DNA of 64,000 nt from Flavobacteriales bacterium. GTDB taxonomy: Bacteria > Bacteroidota > Bacteroidia > CAIKAF01. Each line of letters begins with the position of its first letter. The stretch's first letter is position 1. Below the pieces are notes generated by a model that worked only from the letters and a program-made list of their open reading frames with translations, was not told the origin of the DNA and ran no database searches. The position numbers were made by a program, and so were the translations under genes. Below, in pieces: positions 11,720-34,058 of the stretch. The DNA is taken from assembly GCA_025451235.1 (NCBI GenBank), contig JANWKT010000001.1, positions 124,001 to 188,000 of the forward strand, in the 5' to 3' direction.

Positions 11720-12730
11720 TTAAAACTTGGAAAACTCAAAGGCCGGGTAGCCTTTTTCACCCAAATCGTTCGTAAAGGAGATAAACCGAAGCTTATAAAA
11801 GTTATTTTCCACAGTTCTAATTATATAGGTCCTGTCAGGTTCTATTACATACACCATATTATCAAAATCATAATACTTCCAATCATATCCAATCGCATCC
11901 CAGAATTCAGAATATGAATAGGTTTGAAGATCTGTGTAGACAATATCAGTAAATGGCTTGCTAAAATCCTTTGCCACCTGCACCAAATATGGGTTGATCA
12001 GTACTCCATTCACAGAATAATCCTCGGTTATCTGGGTTTCGATCTGGGTAACTTTGGCTGTATATTGGGTAAATAATAAATCCCAATCATTCTTGTTCGG
12101 TTCTGCATCCACCTGTGAACCTGTACCACTCAAGCTGATATGCACAAAATTCTGGTTGGGGTCCTTGGTAACCGAAATGATATTTTCGCTGGAACCGTCA
12201 AGATTGGCTACCCTGATCTGGTAAACTCCACCCGTTAAACCAATTACCTGCATTTTCTTTTTACCAATATCTATCCCAAGGGTGGTGATACCTCTGTCTA
12301 CCACATATACAAACTGGTGTGAATTGGCATTTCCTGCGCTAAAGGTCCCCCATTCTCCCACAGCGGTGCTGTCCAGATATCCTTCAGACCTGTCGAATCG
12401 ATAGGTGAGTCCCGTTCCACTACTCACTGCATTAAAATCAGTGAAGCCTGTATTGGCAACCGACATTCTCTTCGCCAGATTCGTGAAAATATGATATTCA
12501 TTATCGCCACATTGAAAAGCCAGGTCCCAGGACTCCCTATGCACGATCTGAACAAAGGAATCGGTTTCAATATCGTAATACATCTGGATACCATAGTCGG
12601 GTCCCATAGCAGCCAGGCCGGAAGTAACCCCGGCAGGAGATTGGTAGGGAGGTACCGGCTCGTCCTCCTGGAAGCAGGAGGTAATACATGCTAACAGAAA
12701 TACGTATATGATATATTTGAGTCTTTTCAT
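11720..12730 (-). CDS. HmuY-family haem-binding lipoprotein
   Basis: A 336-residue HmuY-like lipoprotein. The signal peptide ends ACITSC (lipobox, Cys19), so it is probably anchored at the outer membrane. HmuY features are the repeated WDLAF/WDLLF segments (ESWDLAFQCGDNEYHIF and KNDWDLLFTQYT), the IGYDWKYYDF turn, and the closing YIIRTVENNFYKLRF strand pair. HmuY proteins take haem from host or environmental haemoproteins and hand it to the TonB receptor HmuR. Its ATG overlaps the stop of the receptor gene by 4 bases (ATGA), showing coupled translation. I cannot name the haem-ligating residues. It is a paralogue of the protein two genes upstream. Confidence 0.8.
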   Translation of the reverse strand: MKRLKYIIYVFLLACITSCFQEDEPVPPYQSPAGVTSGLAAMGPDYGIQMYYDIETDSFVQIVHRESWDLAFQCGDNEYHIFTNLAKRMSVANTGFTDFNAVSSGTGLTYRFDRSEGYLDSTAVGEWGTFSAGNANSHQFVYVVDRGITTLGIDIGKKKMQVIGLTGGVYQIRVANLDGSSENIISVTKDPNQNFVHISLSGTGSQVDAEPNKNDWDLLFTQYTAKVTQIETQITEDYSVNGVLINPYLVQVAKDFSKPFTDIVYTDLQTYSYSEFWDAIGYDWKYYDFDNMVYVIEPDRTYIIRTVENNFYKLRFISFTNDLGEKGYPAFEFSKF

Positions 12731-14973
12731 TTTTTGCTGACAATAAAATTATAGGCAATGGATACGCCAATGGTTCTGCCCCACATAGTGGGCAAAGTAG
12801 CACTTCCCACAGAGTGAGCACCGCCTGAATTTGCCCCCGATTGGTTGATATTGGTTACGTTCAATAAGTTCTTTCCGTACACTCCTATTTGTAATTTGTT
12901 TTTAAAAAACGACTGAAGGTAAGAAATATCCATGGTGCCAAAACTTTCAATCTGGCCTTCCTGAATTACTTCTGCCTGCAAAGTCTCATCATATTGGGTA
13001 TACAAGAAAGGTTGCGCTCCGGAGTATTTGAAAAATACGTTCAACCTTCCATGCCATTTTTTGAAATGATAGGAGGCATTCGTTTGAATTTCGGGATAAA
13101 ATTTATACTCATTGGTTCCAATCACTTCATCTGAGATCGTATTGATCACCCCGGTATAAGTAGCTCCCAGGCCAATCGAAAGGTTTTTCCAGCTGAAATT
13201 CAATGTAGCCTGACCTCCTACTGATTGGAACCTGGCAATATTCTCATTTCGGTAAACATTCGAATCCGCTGTAATGGAAACGGCAATGAGCCTGATCTGA
13301 TTTTGGATATCATTATAAAACCCTCCTGCAGAAAAACCAAACTCAACATGCTTATACTTTTTATTGGTATACGTGATACTCCCATTTATATTATTTCCAT
13401 ACTCTGCCTGGAGTTTTGTATTTCCATACACATTGTGGTTCACATCCACGAATAAAAAATACAGTTCCTTGAGTGTAGGTGCCCTGAATCCCCTTGAATA
13501 CGACAAGCGAATATCTACATTCTTATGTGGGGATAACCTGGTATGGAGAGATGGGATCACCGGCATTTCGAATTTCGACTGGTACCCATAACGCACTGCA
13601 GGTTTAATGCTCCAAATCTTTACCAGTTTGATCTCAGCAGCTGCAAAAACAGCTACATCTCCCATTTCCTGGAACCCATTTTCTATTCTTTCTCCACTGG
13701 CTGTTTCGTAATTAAATTCGTAGCCACCTTGCACTGTAATTCTTGAATTGGGTTTGTTATAATTATAGATCCCCCTGCTCATGACCTGGTTAAATACATC
13801 TACATTTTCTTCCATCAGATGTTGATCAAGGGTAACCAAATCTTTTCTAAAGGTTTGTCTCCTTCTTTGATAATAAGCATAAGAAACCGTAAGGTCGAGG
13901 TGATGGTTTTTAGCAATATAACCTGTAAAGAATAATCCATGTGTGGTGCGGATGGTCCTGAACCATTGGTCAACCGCCGTTACGTAAAACGGTGTTTCCG
14001 GTGTCCCTTTATTTTCCAATAGTTCATGGAAGATATTTCCGGAATAGCGAAGGTTGAGTAATTTAAAGGATCGGTTATACTGTACTTCTCCAAAATATTG
14101 TTCTTTGGGTTTCCACAGTTTGTACCTGGTAATGGAATCGGTGGTACTGAATCCATCGAAAAAATACCTACCCCCGTTGATCTGAAGAAAATTCTTTTTG
14201 AATTTCCATCCCAGTCTTGCATCTACATTATACGTTCCTACCGATTCATAATAAAATTTTGTACTCCCTTCCAAATTATGGTGCTGGGTCTTTTTGGTAA
14301 TAATATTGATCACCCCACCCATGGCATTGCTACCATATATTGTAGAGGTGGATCCTTCAATCACTTCGATTTTCTCCACATTGTTCATATTGATCTGGCT
14401 AAGGTCCAGGTTACCATCCAATCTCCCAATCAATGGGACCCCATCCACCATGATCTTTACGTTCTCCCCACCCACACCTTGCATCTTAACACCGGTACCC
14501 AATACAGCATCCTGCGACAAACGAATGTTCAAATCGTTGGTGAGCAAGTCACGTAAATTTTGTGCCCCCTGACTTTCGATCCTTATCCTGTCGATCACCT
14601 TGATCTTATAAACAGATTCCTGCACCCTCGTAGGTACTGCATAGGAAGTAACCACAAATTCATTCATCTGCGACTGGTCTTCCTGGAAAGTAAAATGAAA
14701 ATCCTGACCCGGAGTGATCGTATCAACAATAGTTTTGAATCCTACAAAGGATATTCTAATTTGCGCATTTGAGGTAGCTATATTCTTTATTTTCCCCTCT
14801 GCATTGGTAATTTCATACATGGCCTTTTCGCCGTTCAGTGGGTCGATAAAAATATGGGCCCCATACACTTCTTTGCCCTCGGTGTCTTTTACATAAATAA
14901 AAGATTGGGCTGAAACAAGTCCAGCCCAACCCACTATACACAAGAATACTATGTAGTTTTTATAACTATTCAA
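12727..14973 (-). CDS. TonB-dependent haem receptor, HmuR-like
   Basis: A 748-residue TonB-dependent receptor. It has a signal peptide (cleaved after SAQ, residue 23), a carboxypeptidase-like N-terminal extension (about 25-95), a plug (about 115-230, with DGVPLIGRLDG and IEVIEGSTSTIYGSNAMGGVINII-type signature ending in the plug), and a beta-barrel to the C-terminus. Residues 496-521 show the haem-receptor layout: a FRAP box (GFRAPTLKEL), His513 in DVNHNVYG, and a degenerate NPNL box (GNTKL). Known haem receptors use the His between the two boxes. The start is a TTG three bases after the upstream stop, and there is no better in-frame ATG before the signal peptide. It sits between two HmuY-like genes. 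Confidence 0.85.
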   Translation of the reverse strand: MNSYKNYIVFLCIVGWAGLVSAQSFIYVKDTEGKEVYGAHIFIDPLNGEKAMYEITNAEGKIKNIATSNAQIRISFVGFKTIVDTITPGQDFHFTFQEDQSQMNEFVVTSYAVPTRVQESVYKIKVIDRIRIESQGAQNLRDLLTNDLNIRLSQDAVLGTGVKMQGVGGENVKIMVDGVPLIGRLDGNLDLSQINMNNVEKIEVIEGSTSTIYGSNAMGGVINIITKKTQHHNLEGSTKFYYESVGTYNVDARLGWKFKKNFLQINGGRYFFDGFSTTDSITRYKLWKPKEQYFGEVQYNRSFKLLNLRYSGNIFHELLENKGTPETPFYVTAVDQWFRTIRTTHGLFFTGYIAKNHHLDLTVSYAYYQRRRQTFRKDLVTLDQHLMEENVDVFNQVMSRGIYNYNKPNSRITVQGGYEFNYETASGERIENGFQEMGDVAVFAAAEIKLVKIWSIKPAVRYGYQSKFEMPVIPSLHTRLSPHKNVDIRLSYSRGFRAPTLKELYFLFVDVNHNVYGNTKLQAEYGNNINGSITYTNKKYKHVEFGFSAGGFYNDIQNQIRLIAVSITADSNVYRNENIARFQSVGGQATLNFSWKNLSIGLGATYTGVINTISDEVIGTNEYKFYPEIQTNASYHFKKWHGRLNVFFKYSGAQPFLYTQYDETLQAEVIQEGQIESFGTMDISYLQSFFKNKLQIGVYGKNLLNVTNINQSGANSGGAHSVGSATLPTMWGRTIGVSIAYNFIVSKK

Positions 14974-14976
14974 AGA

Positions 14977-16233
14977 TTATCTAATAATAAATTTTTGGTT
15001 TGACATGGCATTTCCAACCTGAACCCTGGCAATATAAATACCTGTTGAAAGATTCATGGAGGTAAGGTCTATCATTACATGGTTAAATCCATGGTTATTG
15101 CTCAGTTTTTGTGTGGTGATCAATTTCCCATTCATATCAACAATACTTAAATCAGCGGTTTCAACATCGTTGTCCATTGTATAGGCAATATGGATAAAAT
15201 CCGATGCTGGATTAGGATATATATTGAAATTAGCCATATTGTTTCCTTCCTCCTCTACCGATACCCAACCTGCCTGACGTACATTGAACAAGTATTTTCC
15301 AGCACCGGAACCTACAAAACCTGTAAACCAGATCTGGTAAATATCCCCTTGGAGGTCTTCCACAAAATACGACAATGAATCTTCAATTACCCAAACTCCG
15401 GTAAATGCTTTCCAATCGTGTCCGATCTCGGTCATATTAACTGACGTGGGATAATAGGTGGAATACCAAACATTGTATGCATCCGATGGTACAATATATC
15501 TGGCTTCGGTGATCTTTACCCCTTCATTGGCTCTTACTCCTGTTACAGGATAATATCCTACACCCAGCCAAGCCGCATAACGATCGAACATCAGGTCATA
15601 ACTGCTTTTGGAGGGCTCTCTATCCATAATGCTACTGGTGGCCAATGCTACGTATGAATAATTTTTATTGGTGTTTCTGTTCACTGTAAAGGTATTGTCA
15701 CCACTATTGTCCAGGTTTGCTACCCGAATGGTGATCGAATTGCTCATGGATGCAAAATTTTTGATCCATACTTTTTTATAAACTGAACCCCCGGCTAAAC
15801 GAATAACAAACAATTTATCTCCAATTACATCATGGGTAATATTGTTATAATTCCCCCAGCCATAGTTTGGATGACCGGTCGCTCCGGTTTCAAAAGCACT
15901 TGGCTCGAAACTGGTATCACTGTCATGGCAACGGATCCAACTTACTCCTCCTTGCAGACCAGCAGTATCCAAGCTGGACCAAGTAGTGGTATCTCCTATT
16001 GATTTATATAGCTCCACCCCAAAACCTTCGTTGATCCGAATAGCCACCGTAAAGAGGGCATTAGAAGCAATGGCAATATCCCAATCGTTATTGGCGGTAA
16101 TGGTATCATTTCCGGTACCAATGGTATAATATCCCTTTCCCACATATCCGGCACCAATAGTTACGGAATCGGGAGTTTGTGCCTGAATCCCCAGAATGGT
16201 ACTGACTAAAATAATCGTAAAAATCTTCTTCAT
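14977..16233 (-). CDS. HmuY-like protein with T9SS sorting domain
   Basis: A 418-residue secreted protein. A signal peptide (ending IQAQ, near residue 19) is followed by a HmuY-like region (about 20-325) and a type IX secretion sorting domain (about 335-418: FNIYPNPASDFIHIAY, SIVDMNGKLI, STGIYIARVQ). Paralogy with the lipoprotein two genes downstream is visible at IRVANLD, at EPSKSSYDLMF against EPNKNDWDLLF, and at IGHDWKAF against IGYDWKYYDF. T9SS cargo crosses the outer membrane and is released or anchored by A-LPS, so this paralogue would work outside the cell. It leads the operon, three bases ahead of the receptor. A direct haem-binding role is inferred. Confidence 0.75.
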   Translation of the reverse strand: MKKIFTIILVSTILGIQAQTPDSVTIGAGYVGKGYYTIGTGNDTITANNDWDIAIASNALFTVAIRINEGFGVELYKSIGDTTTWSSLDTAGLQGGVSWIRCHDSDTSFEPSAFETGATGHPNYGWGNYNNITHDVIGDKLFVIRLAGGSVYKKVWIKNFASMSNSITIRVANLDNSGDNTFTVNRNTNKNYSYVALATSSIMDREPSKSSYDLMFDRYAAWLGVGYYPVTGVRANEGVKITEARYIVPSDAYNVWYSTYYPTSVNMTEIGHDWKAFTGVWVIEDSLSYFVEDLQGDIYQIWFTGFVGSGAGKYLFNVRQAGWVSVEEEGNNMANFNIYPNPASDFIHIAYTMDNDVETADLSIVDMNGKLITTQKLSNNHGFNHVMIDLTSMNLSTGIYIARVQVGNAMSNQKFIIR

Positions 16234-16265
16234 CGTTTATGTTTTAATTCATTGAATGTTGGCCG

Positions 16266-16296
16266 CAAAGGTATTGGCCGGAAGGCAAGTAAACAA
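16266..16296 (-). promoter_or_regulatory. Promoter of the hmu-like operon
   Basis: On the minus strand TTG (16294-16296), 20 bases, then TACCTTTG (16266-16273), a full -7 match. The ATG of the first operon gene is 33 bases downstream. A 6-bp inverted repeat AGGTTG/CAACCT lies upstream near 16324-16342 and is a possible operator. No Fur box is obvious to the eye. Confidence 0.6.
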
Positions 16297-16375: not shown

Positions 16376-17032
16376 TTACTCTTTTTCCACCAGCCCTTGG
16401 GTATAGGCGTAATTGATCAGCTCTGCAGCGCTTTTGCAGGACAGTTTTTTCAGGATATTTTTGCGGTGGGTATATACAGTATGCGTACTTAAAAACAATT
16501 TATCAGCAATCTCCTTGGTGCTCTTTCCTTGGGTGATCAGCATCAATACTTCCATTTCTCTTTCGCTTAGATCGTCGTGGAGTTGTTGTTGAGGTTTTTC
16601 AGGGCCACGTTTAAAGCTATATTCGATCAATGCCTCTACTACCTTAGGGGTAAAGAACTTGATGCCCTCAATGGTTCCCCGGATGGTTTGCATCACCTCC
16701 TCGTCAGAGGAGTGAAGGGTAAAAAAACTGGTGATACTTAACTTATGCAGTTTATAAATGCTTTCTTTATCAGGATCGGAGAACAGAATGGTCTTGTATT
16801 TGACGATTAAGCCATTGGTTTCTTCCCATTCCGATTCCAGAAACATTTGCTCGAACCAACGATCGATCATTAGAATGGAAGGCTGATGCACCACTAGCAT
16901 TTCCAATAACTGCTGCCTTCCGGTTGCAATACCTGAAAGTTCCACATCCTCCATTTTCTCCAAAATGCGAACCAGGCCTGATGATACTACCTGCTGAGAG
17001 GTAGCTAAAACTATCTTTGTTGTAGAGGACAT
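16376..17032 (-). CDS. LuxR/NarL-type regulator with degenerate receiver
   Basis: A 218-residue regulator with an N-terminal receiver-like domain and a C-terminal LuxR helix-turn-helix (about 155-213: LSEREMEVLMLITQGKSTKE, then a THTVYTHRKNILKKL recognition helix). The receiver keeps an Asp at the phosphorylation position (Asp57 in LMIDRWF) but lacks the usual acidic pair after strand 1 and the conserved Lys: the ITSFFTLHS segment stands where GAxGYLxK is expected. It may therefore respond to something other than phosphorylation. It lies 142 bases upstream of the haem operon on the same strand, but the operon has its own promoter. Control of that operon is a guess from position. Confidence 0.8.
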   Translation of the reverse strand: MSSTTKIVLATSQQVVSSGLVRILEKMEDVELSGIATGRQQLLEMLVVHQPSILMIDRWFEQMFLESEWEETNGLIVKYKTILFSDPDKESIYKLHKLSITSFFTLHSSDEEVMQTIRGTIEGIKFFTPKVVEALIEYSFKRGPEKPQQQLHDDLSEREMEVLMLITQGKSTKEIADKLFLSTHTVYTHRKNILKKLSCKSAAELINYAYTQGLVEKE

Positions 17033-32460: not shown

Positions 32461-33081
32461 TTAAAATAACTGATCTGCATAGTTCCAAAACAGGAACAAA
32501 TATAACCACAATCCATCTAAAAAATGCCAGTACATTCCGCTCAACTTAAGGCCTGTATGACTTTTCGGACTATACTTCCCAACTGCTGAACGGATACCCG
32601 TTACCAGCAAAGAGATCAATCCTCCAATCAAATGGGCCAAATGCAAGGCTGTAATAACATAAAATAATGAACCACTGTTACTCTTTGTCCTGGGATCGGC
32701 AGGGTAAATATCATTTCTGATCAACTCTTTCCAACCTTCCCACTGCAAATAAGTAAATATTATTCCTAAAATCAAAGTACTGAATATAAATAATGTAGCT
32801 AAACCTTTCTTAGCCCTTTTAGTGAACATACTTCCTAGCATCATGGTAATGCTGCTGAGAACTAATACAATGGTGCTTTGGGTAAACTGCAAAGGGATAT
32901 CAAAGAGGATCCATGCGCTTTGTGCCTGTCTTACTATAAAATATGAACAAAAGCCTCCAAACATGATAAAAATGGCAAACATGGCCAGCCACATCATAAA
33001 CAACTTGGCTCTTTCCATGTCCCGCTTGGTAGGCTCTGAAGAAAAAGGTGGCGGACTGGTGATCTGGACGTTTTCTGTCAT
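32461..33081 (-). CDS. Cytochrome c oxidase subunit III (short copy)
   Basis: A 206-residue subunit III paralogue with five helices. The ATG at 33081 overlaps the ctaB stop by 4 bases (ATGA); an upstream GTG would add four residues. Typical motifs are HLAHLIGGLISLL (the HxxH helix), LKLSGMYWHFLDGLWLYLFLF (ending helix, aligned with the end of the longer copy), and WLAMFAIFIMFGGFCSYFIV in the first helix. Tandem subunit III genes of unequal length are usual in this phylum. Both copies probably join one oxidase complex. Confidence 0.93.
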   Translation of the reverse strand: MTENVQITSPPPFSSEPTKRDMERAKLFMMWLAMFAIFIMFGGFCSYFIVRQAQSAWILFDIPLQFTQSTIVLVLSSITMMLGSMFTKRAKKGLATLFIFSTLILGIIFTYLQWEGWKELIRNDIYPADPRTKSNSGSLFYVITALHLAHLIGGLISLLVTGIRSAVGKYSPKSHTGLKLSGMYWHFLDGLWLYLFLFWNYADQLF

Positions 33082-34058
33082 ATATTTATCCACATAAAGA
33101 TTTGAACTACAGGCAAGTACAGAAAGCTGGTAAACATTAGGACGGTCGCATCCTTCATATGGAGGCTTTTATACAACCTGAGAGCAGGAATAAGGAATAC
33201 AATTCCACAGATCCCGATAATAATTCCGGAGATCAAGTGGGTATACCCCATAAAAACGGGTACTATACTTACTGGGATTAAAAACAAGGTATAGATAAGG
33301 ATTTGAAAGGCATTCTGTTTACTATGCCCAGATCTAAAGGGCAGTAAACTAAACCCTGCTTTGGCATAGTCCTCATTCATCCTCCAGGCGATTGCCCAGA
33401 AATGCGGGAACTGCCACATGAACTGGGTAGCAAATAATAACATTGCCAGATAATCAACGCTGCCCTTGGCGGCTACATAGCCTAATAATGGAGGCAAAGC
33501 TCCTGGGATGGCCCCTACAAAAACGGCTATAGAACTTACCCTTTTAAGTGGGGTATATACAAAAGCATATAAGATCAAGGACGAAACGCTTAATACGGTG
33601 CAAAGCGGATTGGTCCCAAACCATAGAAACAACGTTCCAGTGATCGTAAACACTATTACCAAAACGTAAGCCTCGGTTACCGACATTTTTTCTTTCGGTA
33701 AAGGACGTTGCATAGTCCTTTTCATGAGCTTGTCCAACTCTCTTTCGAAGATCTGGTTAAGCCCGTTACTTGCAGCAGTAATAGAGAATCCTCCGATCAA
33801 TAAACAGATAAATGTACTTGGATCAAATATTCCACCGGCAATCAGGTAACCCAATCCGGCTGAAAATAAAACCAGTAATGATAACCTTAGCTTAGTAAAA
33901 GCTATATAATCAGAAATTTTTAGAGAAGAGGATTTTTCGATTTGTACTGAATTTTCTGCCAACACCTGAGGATAATTTCTTAACGGGGCAAAAGTAATGT
34001 TTTTGGGTAAAAAGGCTGAGATTATTAACAAAAAAGAATATTCGATTTTTTTGTACAT
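33078..34058 (-). CDS. ctaB: Protohaem IX farnesyltransferase (haem O synthase)
   Basis: CtaB attaches a farnesyl group to haem B to give haem O, the precursor of haem A in the oxidase. The prenyltransferase signature NQIFERELDKLMKRTMQRPL lies near residue 105 and is followed by about seven membrane helices. The start is uncertain. The ATG at 34058 gives 31 extra residues unlike the family start. A perfect -7 element TACTTTTG on the minus strand near 34000-33993 would place transcription downstream of it, and GTG or TTG codons around residue 32 (before LAENSVQIEK) are then likelier starts. It heads the oxidase operon. Confidence 0.92.
   Translation of the reverse strand: MYKKIEYSFLLIISAFLPKNITFAPLRNYPQVLAENSVQIEKSSSLKISDYIAFTKLRLSLLVLFSAGLGYLIAGGIFDPSTFICLLIGGFSITAASNGLNQIFERELDKLMKRTMQRPLPKEKMSVTEAYVLVIVFTITGTLFLWFGTNPLCTVLSVSSLILYAFVYTPLKRVSSIAVFVGAIPGALPPLLGYVAAKGSVDYLAMLLFATQFMWQFPHFWAIAWRMNEDYAKAGFSLLPFRSGHSKQNAFQILIYTLFLIPVSIVPVFMGYTHLISGIIIGICGIVFLIPALRLYKSLHMKDATVLMFTSFLYLPVVQIFMWINI

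Follow-up and report, generated by a model that had tools for sequence, protein, structure and literature searches.

The window, a stretch of 64,000 nucleotides from a Flavobacteriales bacterium, carries three closely packed genes on its minus strand, behind one Bacteroidota-type promoter. In order along that strand these are T (HmuT9; positions 14977–16233), encoding an HmuY-like protein of 418 residues with a T9SS tail; a gene for a TonB-dependent receptor of 748 residues, with a TTG start (12727–14973); and L (HmuL; 11720–12730), encoding an HmuY-family lipoprotein of 336 residues. Three bases (14974–14976) separate T from the receptor gene, and the receptor and L genes overlap by the four bases ATGA (12727–12730); these coordinates agree with the gene order, strand and tight coupling reported in the initial annotation. 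The promoter, TTG-N20-TACCTTTG (16266–16296, minus strand), was read from the sequence as a Bacteroidota −33/−7 element. It stops 32 bases before the ATG of T, in a region where a scan for E. coli-type promoters returned no match; the motif recurs upstream of T in 15 of 65 relatives, as compared with none of 63 upstream of the receptor gene, one of 60 upstream of L, and 1.6% of random stretches. A promoter ahead of the set, as first proposed, is thus present, and the occurrence of its motif before T but almost never before the receptor gene or L argues that the three genes most likely form one transcript.

Immediately upstream of the operon lies a gene for a LuxR-type regulator (16376–17032, minus strand). 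Homologues occupy this position directly upstream in seven loci from several groups, so the regulator may control the operon. A different neighbour precedes T in 22 of 65 loci: a small single-span protein of about 120 residues (for example, L126:9447–9860, L119:2868–3236, and L108:9521–9901), in which an HQ- or HF-type motif follows the span and, in 20 of the 22, R(G/A)PP stands at the C-terminus (background, 26 of 596 small ORFs, the upstream proteins included). Three examples were compared with Pfam and gave no match.

The T protein begins with a signal peptide (residues 1–19) and ends with a Por_Secre_tail/TIGR04183 sorting domain (residues 338–418; 14980–15222, minus strand). The tail was recognized by Pfam (Por_Secre_tail, E 5e-14), by NCBIfam (TIGR04183, E 2e-12; 46.9 bits, cut-off 23), and by fold, through matches to the T9SS tails 8qb1 and 8glk. 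The genome itself has a T9SS, as judged from dozens of matches to the T tail region elsewhere in it and from SprA, found in all 27 related genomes tested. Signal peptide, C-terminal sorting domain and secretion system together mark T as a type-A T9SS cargo. The HmuY assignment is less direct: the T protein of the window falls below the curated score of the HmuY profile, PF14064, and does not match it, and the fold search with the T model, dominated by the tail domain, retrieved no HmuY structure. Members of the T family do pass PF14064 (L194, 65.7 bits; L195, 40.3; L196, 45.1), and the same three match Por_Secre_tail, L194 at 26.5 bits, just below the cut-off of 27. Kinship of T to HmuY rests, then, on the sequence profile, on these Pfam matches of close relatives, and on matching secondary structure. 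Residues 120–134, GHPNYGWGNYNNITH (15832–15876, minus strand), include the candidate haem ligands His121 and His134, conserved in 87% and 83% of 63 aligned relatives within the motif GHPDYGWGxYNxxTH; one or the other is absent from 19 of the 63, five of which belong to the window's own family and have Phe121. Two orphan T proteins of about 770 residues (L192:2966–5278 and L193:6414–8714) contain two whole HmuY regions in tandem; both have a T9SS tail, and no TonB receptor is encoded nearby.

The L protein matches PF14064 directly (E 4e-18; 66.4 bits, cut-off 27). Its AF2 model (pLDDT 93.7) has ten significant matches in the PDB, all to HmuY-family structures at probability 1.00, with TM-scores that are low (0.3–0.5, depending on the target) because the L chain is longer than the solved HmuY proteins. 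Structure prediction had been suggested as a check on the initial annotation; HmuY-family folds being the sole significant matches, a fold unrelated to HmuY is ruled out for L. Its lipobox, ITSC, which ends in Cys19, is followed by FQEDE (12659–12676, minus strand), an acidic stretch that resembles the published Bacteroidota surface-lipoprotein export signal, C-X-K-(D/E)2-X (PMC5080379). The pattern C-x-x-(D/E)2 fits 38 of 54 aligned L relatives. With a polar residue next to its Cys and acidic residues from +3 to +5, L has the features of a surface-exposed Bacteroidota lipoprotein, and the two export routes originally assigned to the pair hold up as signals: a T9SS tail on T, and a lipobox with surface-lipoprotein signal on L. 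The alignment of 54 L relatives contains no conserved His; Met89 (12464–12466, minus strand) is Met in 42 of them.

The proposal that T and L are HmuY-like paralogues with common motifs was borne out by three comparisons. BLASTP aligns the two proteins at 30% identity over 188 residues (E 2e-15, a single comparison); hhalign aligns the two families over 273 columns at 99.9% probability (E 6e-32); and a tree built from 63 T and 54 L proteins, 117 in all, places each set on its own side of a branch with 100% support. Predicted secondary structures also match nearly strand for strand. Chance resemblance is thereby ruled out, and so, by the reciprocal T and L clades, is a recent duplication. Judged by sequence, T and L are true paralogues from an old duplication, which, given two fully supported clades, predates the spread of these lineages. 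In both proteins, moreover, the halves of the HmuY region resemble each other (hhalign, 76–83%; E about 1e-5), and PF14064 matches some relatives twice. This is suggestive of an internal repeat, in which T and L would each comprise two HmuY modules in a row.

The receptor consists of a carboxypeptidase-D-like extension, a plug and a barrel. Its best models are those of haem and haemoglobin receptors: TIGR01785 and TIGR01786 score about 105 bits, top among all models, yet below their cut-offs of 317–324. An alignment of 60 relatives locates FRAP (residues 496–499), His513, and an NxxL box (518–521) in one loop (13411–13488, minus strand). His513 and L521 are invariant in all 60, and N518 is present in 59. 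The three motifs had been listed in the initial annotation and are there, the "NPNL-like" box reading N-T-K-L, that is, NxxL; together they match the combination reported from haem/haemoglobin receptors (PMC9331221). With plug and barrel, and FRAP, His and NxxL in the L7 loop, the receptor is HmuR-like. Near the C-terminus, His720 in the sequence GGAHS (12814–12816, minus strand; His in 50 of 60 relatives) is a possible second haem ligand.

The T-receptor-L operon is found, in the same gene order, in all 16 genomes of the window's family, which in this collection is the whole order. The genes around it vary between genera, and T, receptor and L thus act as a self-contained unit. A scan of 84,980 species genomes yielded 71 named loci, of which 58, from many Bacteroidota groups, have the T-receptor-L order; most of the others end at contig edges. 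These counts rule out an oddity of one genome. Among 396 genomes sampled from the class, the T profile matches 154, some through L-type proteins only, and PF14064 scores above its cut-off in 161; among the matches listed, T and L lie on the same strand within 9 kb in 89 of the 92 class genomes that have both. At one locus (L102:10001–13189), T and the TonB receptor share a single frame of 1062 residues, through natural fusion or sequencing error.

HmuY secreted by the T9SS, HmuY as a lipoprotein, and operons that pair HmuY with a receptor have all been described before, and the best reading of the operon is a two-paralogue variant of Hmu/Hfp haem uptake. It is quite likely a haem-import operon of that kind, in which a TonB receptor works with two extracellular HmuY-type proteins, both long (probably two-module) and derived from an ancient duplication. 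T would pick up haem on or outside the cell surface, with the His121/His134 motif as the probable binding site; L, on or beside the receptor, would hand it inward through His513 and perhaps His720, in a step powered by TonB. Different haem ligands, and with them different roles, are plausible for the two proteins: T keeps the H121/H134 pair, L lacks it and instead has Met89. Among relatives with solved structures, HmuY holds haem between two His, and Tfo probably does so with a pair of Met (PMC6200708).

Systems of the P. gingivalis type manage with a single HmuY. A pair therefore points to a relay or to a co-receptor built from both proteins, and the export signals bear on the choice. The T9SS tail is present in 53 aligned T proteins, none of which has a lipobox. 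Ten further full-length T proteins, from ten loci that form one clade, have no tail, and all ten have a lipobox. Loss of the T9SS was predicted as the cause and then refuted, since the 27 SprA-positive genomes include all ten with lipoprotein T. Several independent swaps of export route find no support either: a single change (support 86 on the T tree) suffices. A gene for a 126-residue membrane protein that contains a conserved His lies after L at L152:14315–14695 and at five other loci, all in the lipoprotein-T clade; Pfam gave no match for it.

Surface placement, and not release, is the property that T proteins have in common, as the exchange of tail for lipobox with the T9SS kept indicates; T of this particular organism may nonetheless be released. 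This fits an arrangement in which T and L both sit on the surface as a two-part lid on the TonB receptor, T recognizing the source of haem and L recognizing the receptor, with the T9SS tail serving as one route to the surface. The lipid-anchored T proteins keep both His121 and His134 in all ten cases, and T, receptor and L are tightly co-inherited, as such a lid would predict; however, the exchange of tail and anchor was a single event and so constitutes one natural experiment. Such a two-part co-receptor is a serious possibility that stops short of being probable.

The initial annotation had favoured a relay, in which T is released as a free haemophore and passes haem to anchored L and thence to the receptor. 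The T9SS tail on T and the lipobox with export signal on L are what a relay would lead one to expect, as are the differing conserved candidate ligands (the His pair in T, Met89 in L), and the HmuY of Flavobacterium columnare is described as T9SS-secreted (PMC9618737). The "released" state of T does not follow from its tail, however: a type-A tail is compatible with anchoring no less than with release (PMC10202324). And T is a lipoprotein throughout the ten-locus clade, in genomes that still encode the T9SS, so free diffusion is not generally required. A released T feeding L is therefore rather unlikely, and we lean slightly towards the surface co-receptor.

Haem is well supported as the ligand by gene neighbours, receptor motifs, the fold of L, and physiology. 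At L158 (Lewinella cohaerens) and L194, T is followed by genes for a periplasmic binding protein, a FecCD permease, an ATPase, HemS, and a TonB receptor. Elsewhere, T neighbours a divergent receptor-L-binding protein-permease-ATPase operon (L195), the T-receptor-L operon includes FeoB (L105), or HemS adjoins it (L147). In Aureibacter a full-length L homologue occurs in the order TonB receptor-HmuY-CobN (HmuS)-ExbB. Neither HemS nor a FecCD permease was found in the window's genome, a result that weighs against the haem-import reading. As for physiology, the window encodes a haem O synthase, CtaB/CyoE (33078–34058, minus strand; TIGR01473, 247 bits, cut-off 210), and so protohaem is used by this genome; two cytochrome oxidase subunit III (COX3) genes are also present. 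A search for ferrochelatase found none in the 16 genomes of the window's order, and recovered the enzyme in 8 of 14 control genomes, one of them a Bacteroides. Haem being needed and its last synthetic step missing, haem auxotrophy is predicted for the order, in the sense of that final step, ferrochelatase. In this order, the operon would probably supply most of the protohaem used by the cytochrome oxidases.

That the ligand is instead another porphyrin, cobalamin or a siderophore is improbable: the receptor plug matches the BtuB and CirA models too, and the binding-protein and FecCD genes of relatives are as like B12 importers as haem ones, yet the HemS, HmuS/CobN and FeoB neighbours, the HmuY fold, the lack of any cobalamin riboswitch or other Rfam match by the operon in nine loci (which also rules out such RNA control), the absence from the window's genome of FecCD, the usual B12/siderophore permease, and the missing ferrochelatase throughout the order all argue against it.

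A larger scenario, tentative and on balance doubtful, would have a whole order of Bacteroidia give up haem synthesis and live on environmental haem by means of a three-part surface machine, in which two HmuY sisters with different iron ligands pass haem sequentially to a TonB receptor, a machine that is also found across much of the class. Most work on Hmu-type haem uptake concerns mouth and gut pathogens that have a single HmuY. A widespread, ancient pair whose export route can be exchanged sets apart two questions that a lone HmuY cannot: whether a haem carrier must leave the cell, and whether two carriers share out the work. The ferrochelatase-less order, for its part, offers a natural test of environmental haem cross-feeding, and its haem-pathway status is worth a study of its own. 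In the literature library that was searched, no paper was found on a conserved paralogue pair, on exchange of the export route, or on an order without ferrochelatase.

The closest known systems each share part of this design. As in the Hmu system of Porphyromonas gingivalis (HmuY-HmuR-HmuSTUV), an HmuY-family lipoprotein adjoins a TonB haem receptor with FRAP, His and NxxL. The P. gingivalis HmuY, however, is a single domain of about 200 residues with ligands His134 and His166, whereas here there are two proteins, with HmuY regions of about 330 residues, one of them T9SS-tailed. Nor do hmuSTUV genes lie beside the operon in the window; with HmuS/CobN and the membrane genes absent, it is not a canonical HmuYRSTUV operon. 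The iron-regulated Hfp operon of Flavobacterium psychrophilum (HfpR-DoxX-HfpY) likewise encodes a TonB receptor and then an HmuY-like protein, but only a single one, with a DoxX gene between. HfpY is a haem-binding protein without which growth on haemoglobin is reduced, and HfpR keeps the receptor motif only partially (PMC9331221). C6N29_01035 of F. columnare, like T, combines an HmuY domain and a Por_Secre_tail in one protein; it is described as a single gene, with no partner lipoprotein or receptor operon described, and deletion of this hmuY caused no growth defect under the conditions tested (PMC9618737). In Tenacibaculum maritimum, the HmuY lipoprotein and HmuR are encoded by tandem genes, as receptor and L are here, and both are major secretome proteins; no T9SS paralogue is described. 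The initial claim of one HmuY lipoprotein per known hmu operon is thus only partly right: exceptions are the T9SS-secreted F. columnare protein (PMC9618737) and one locus in the class sample (L191, genome G310). There, two HmuY genes of canonical length alternate with two TonB receptor genes, so doubled sets arose in the single-domain branch too.
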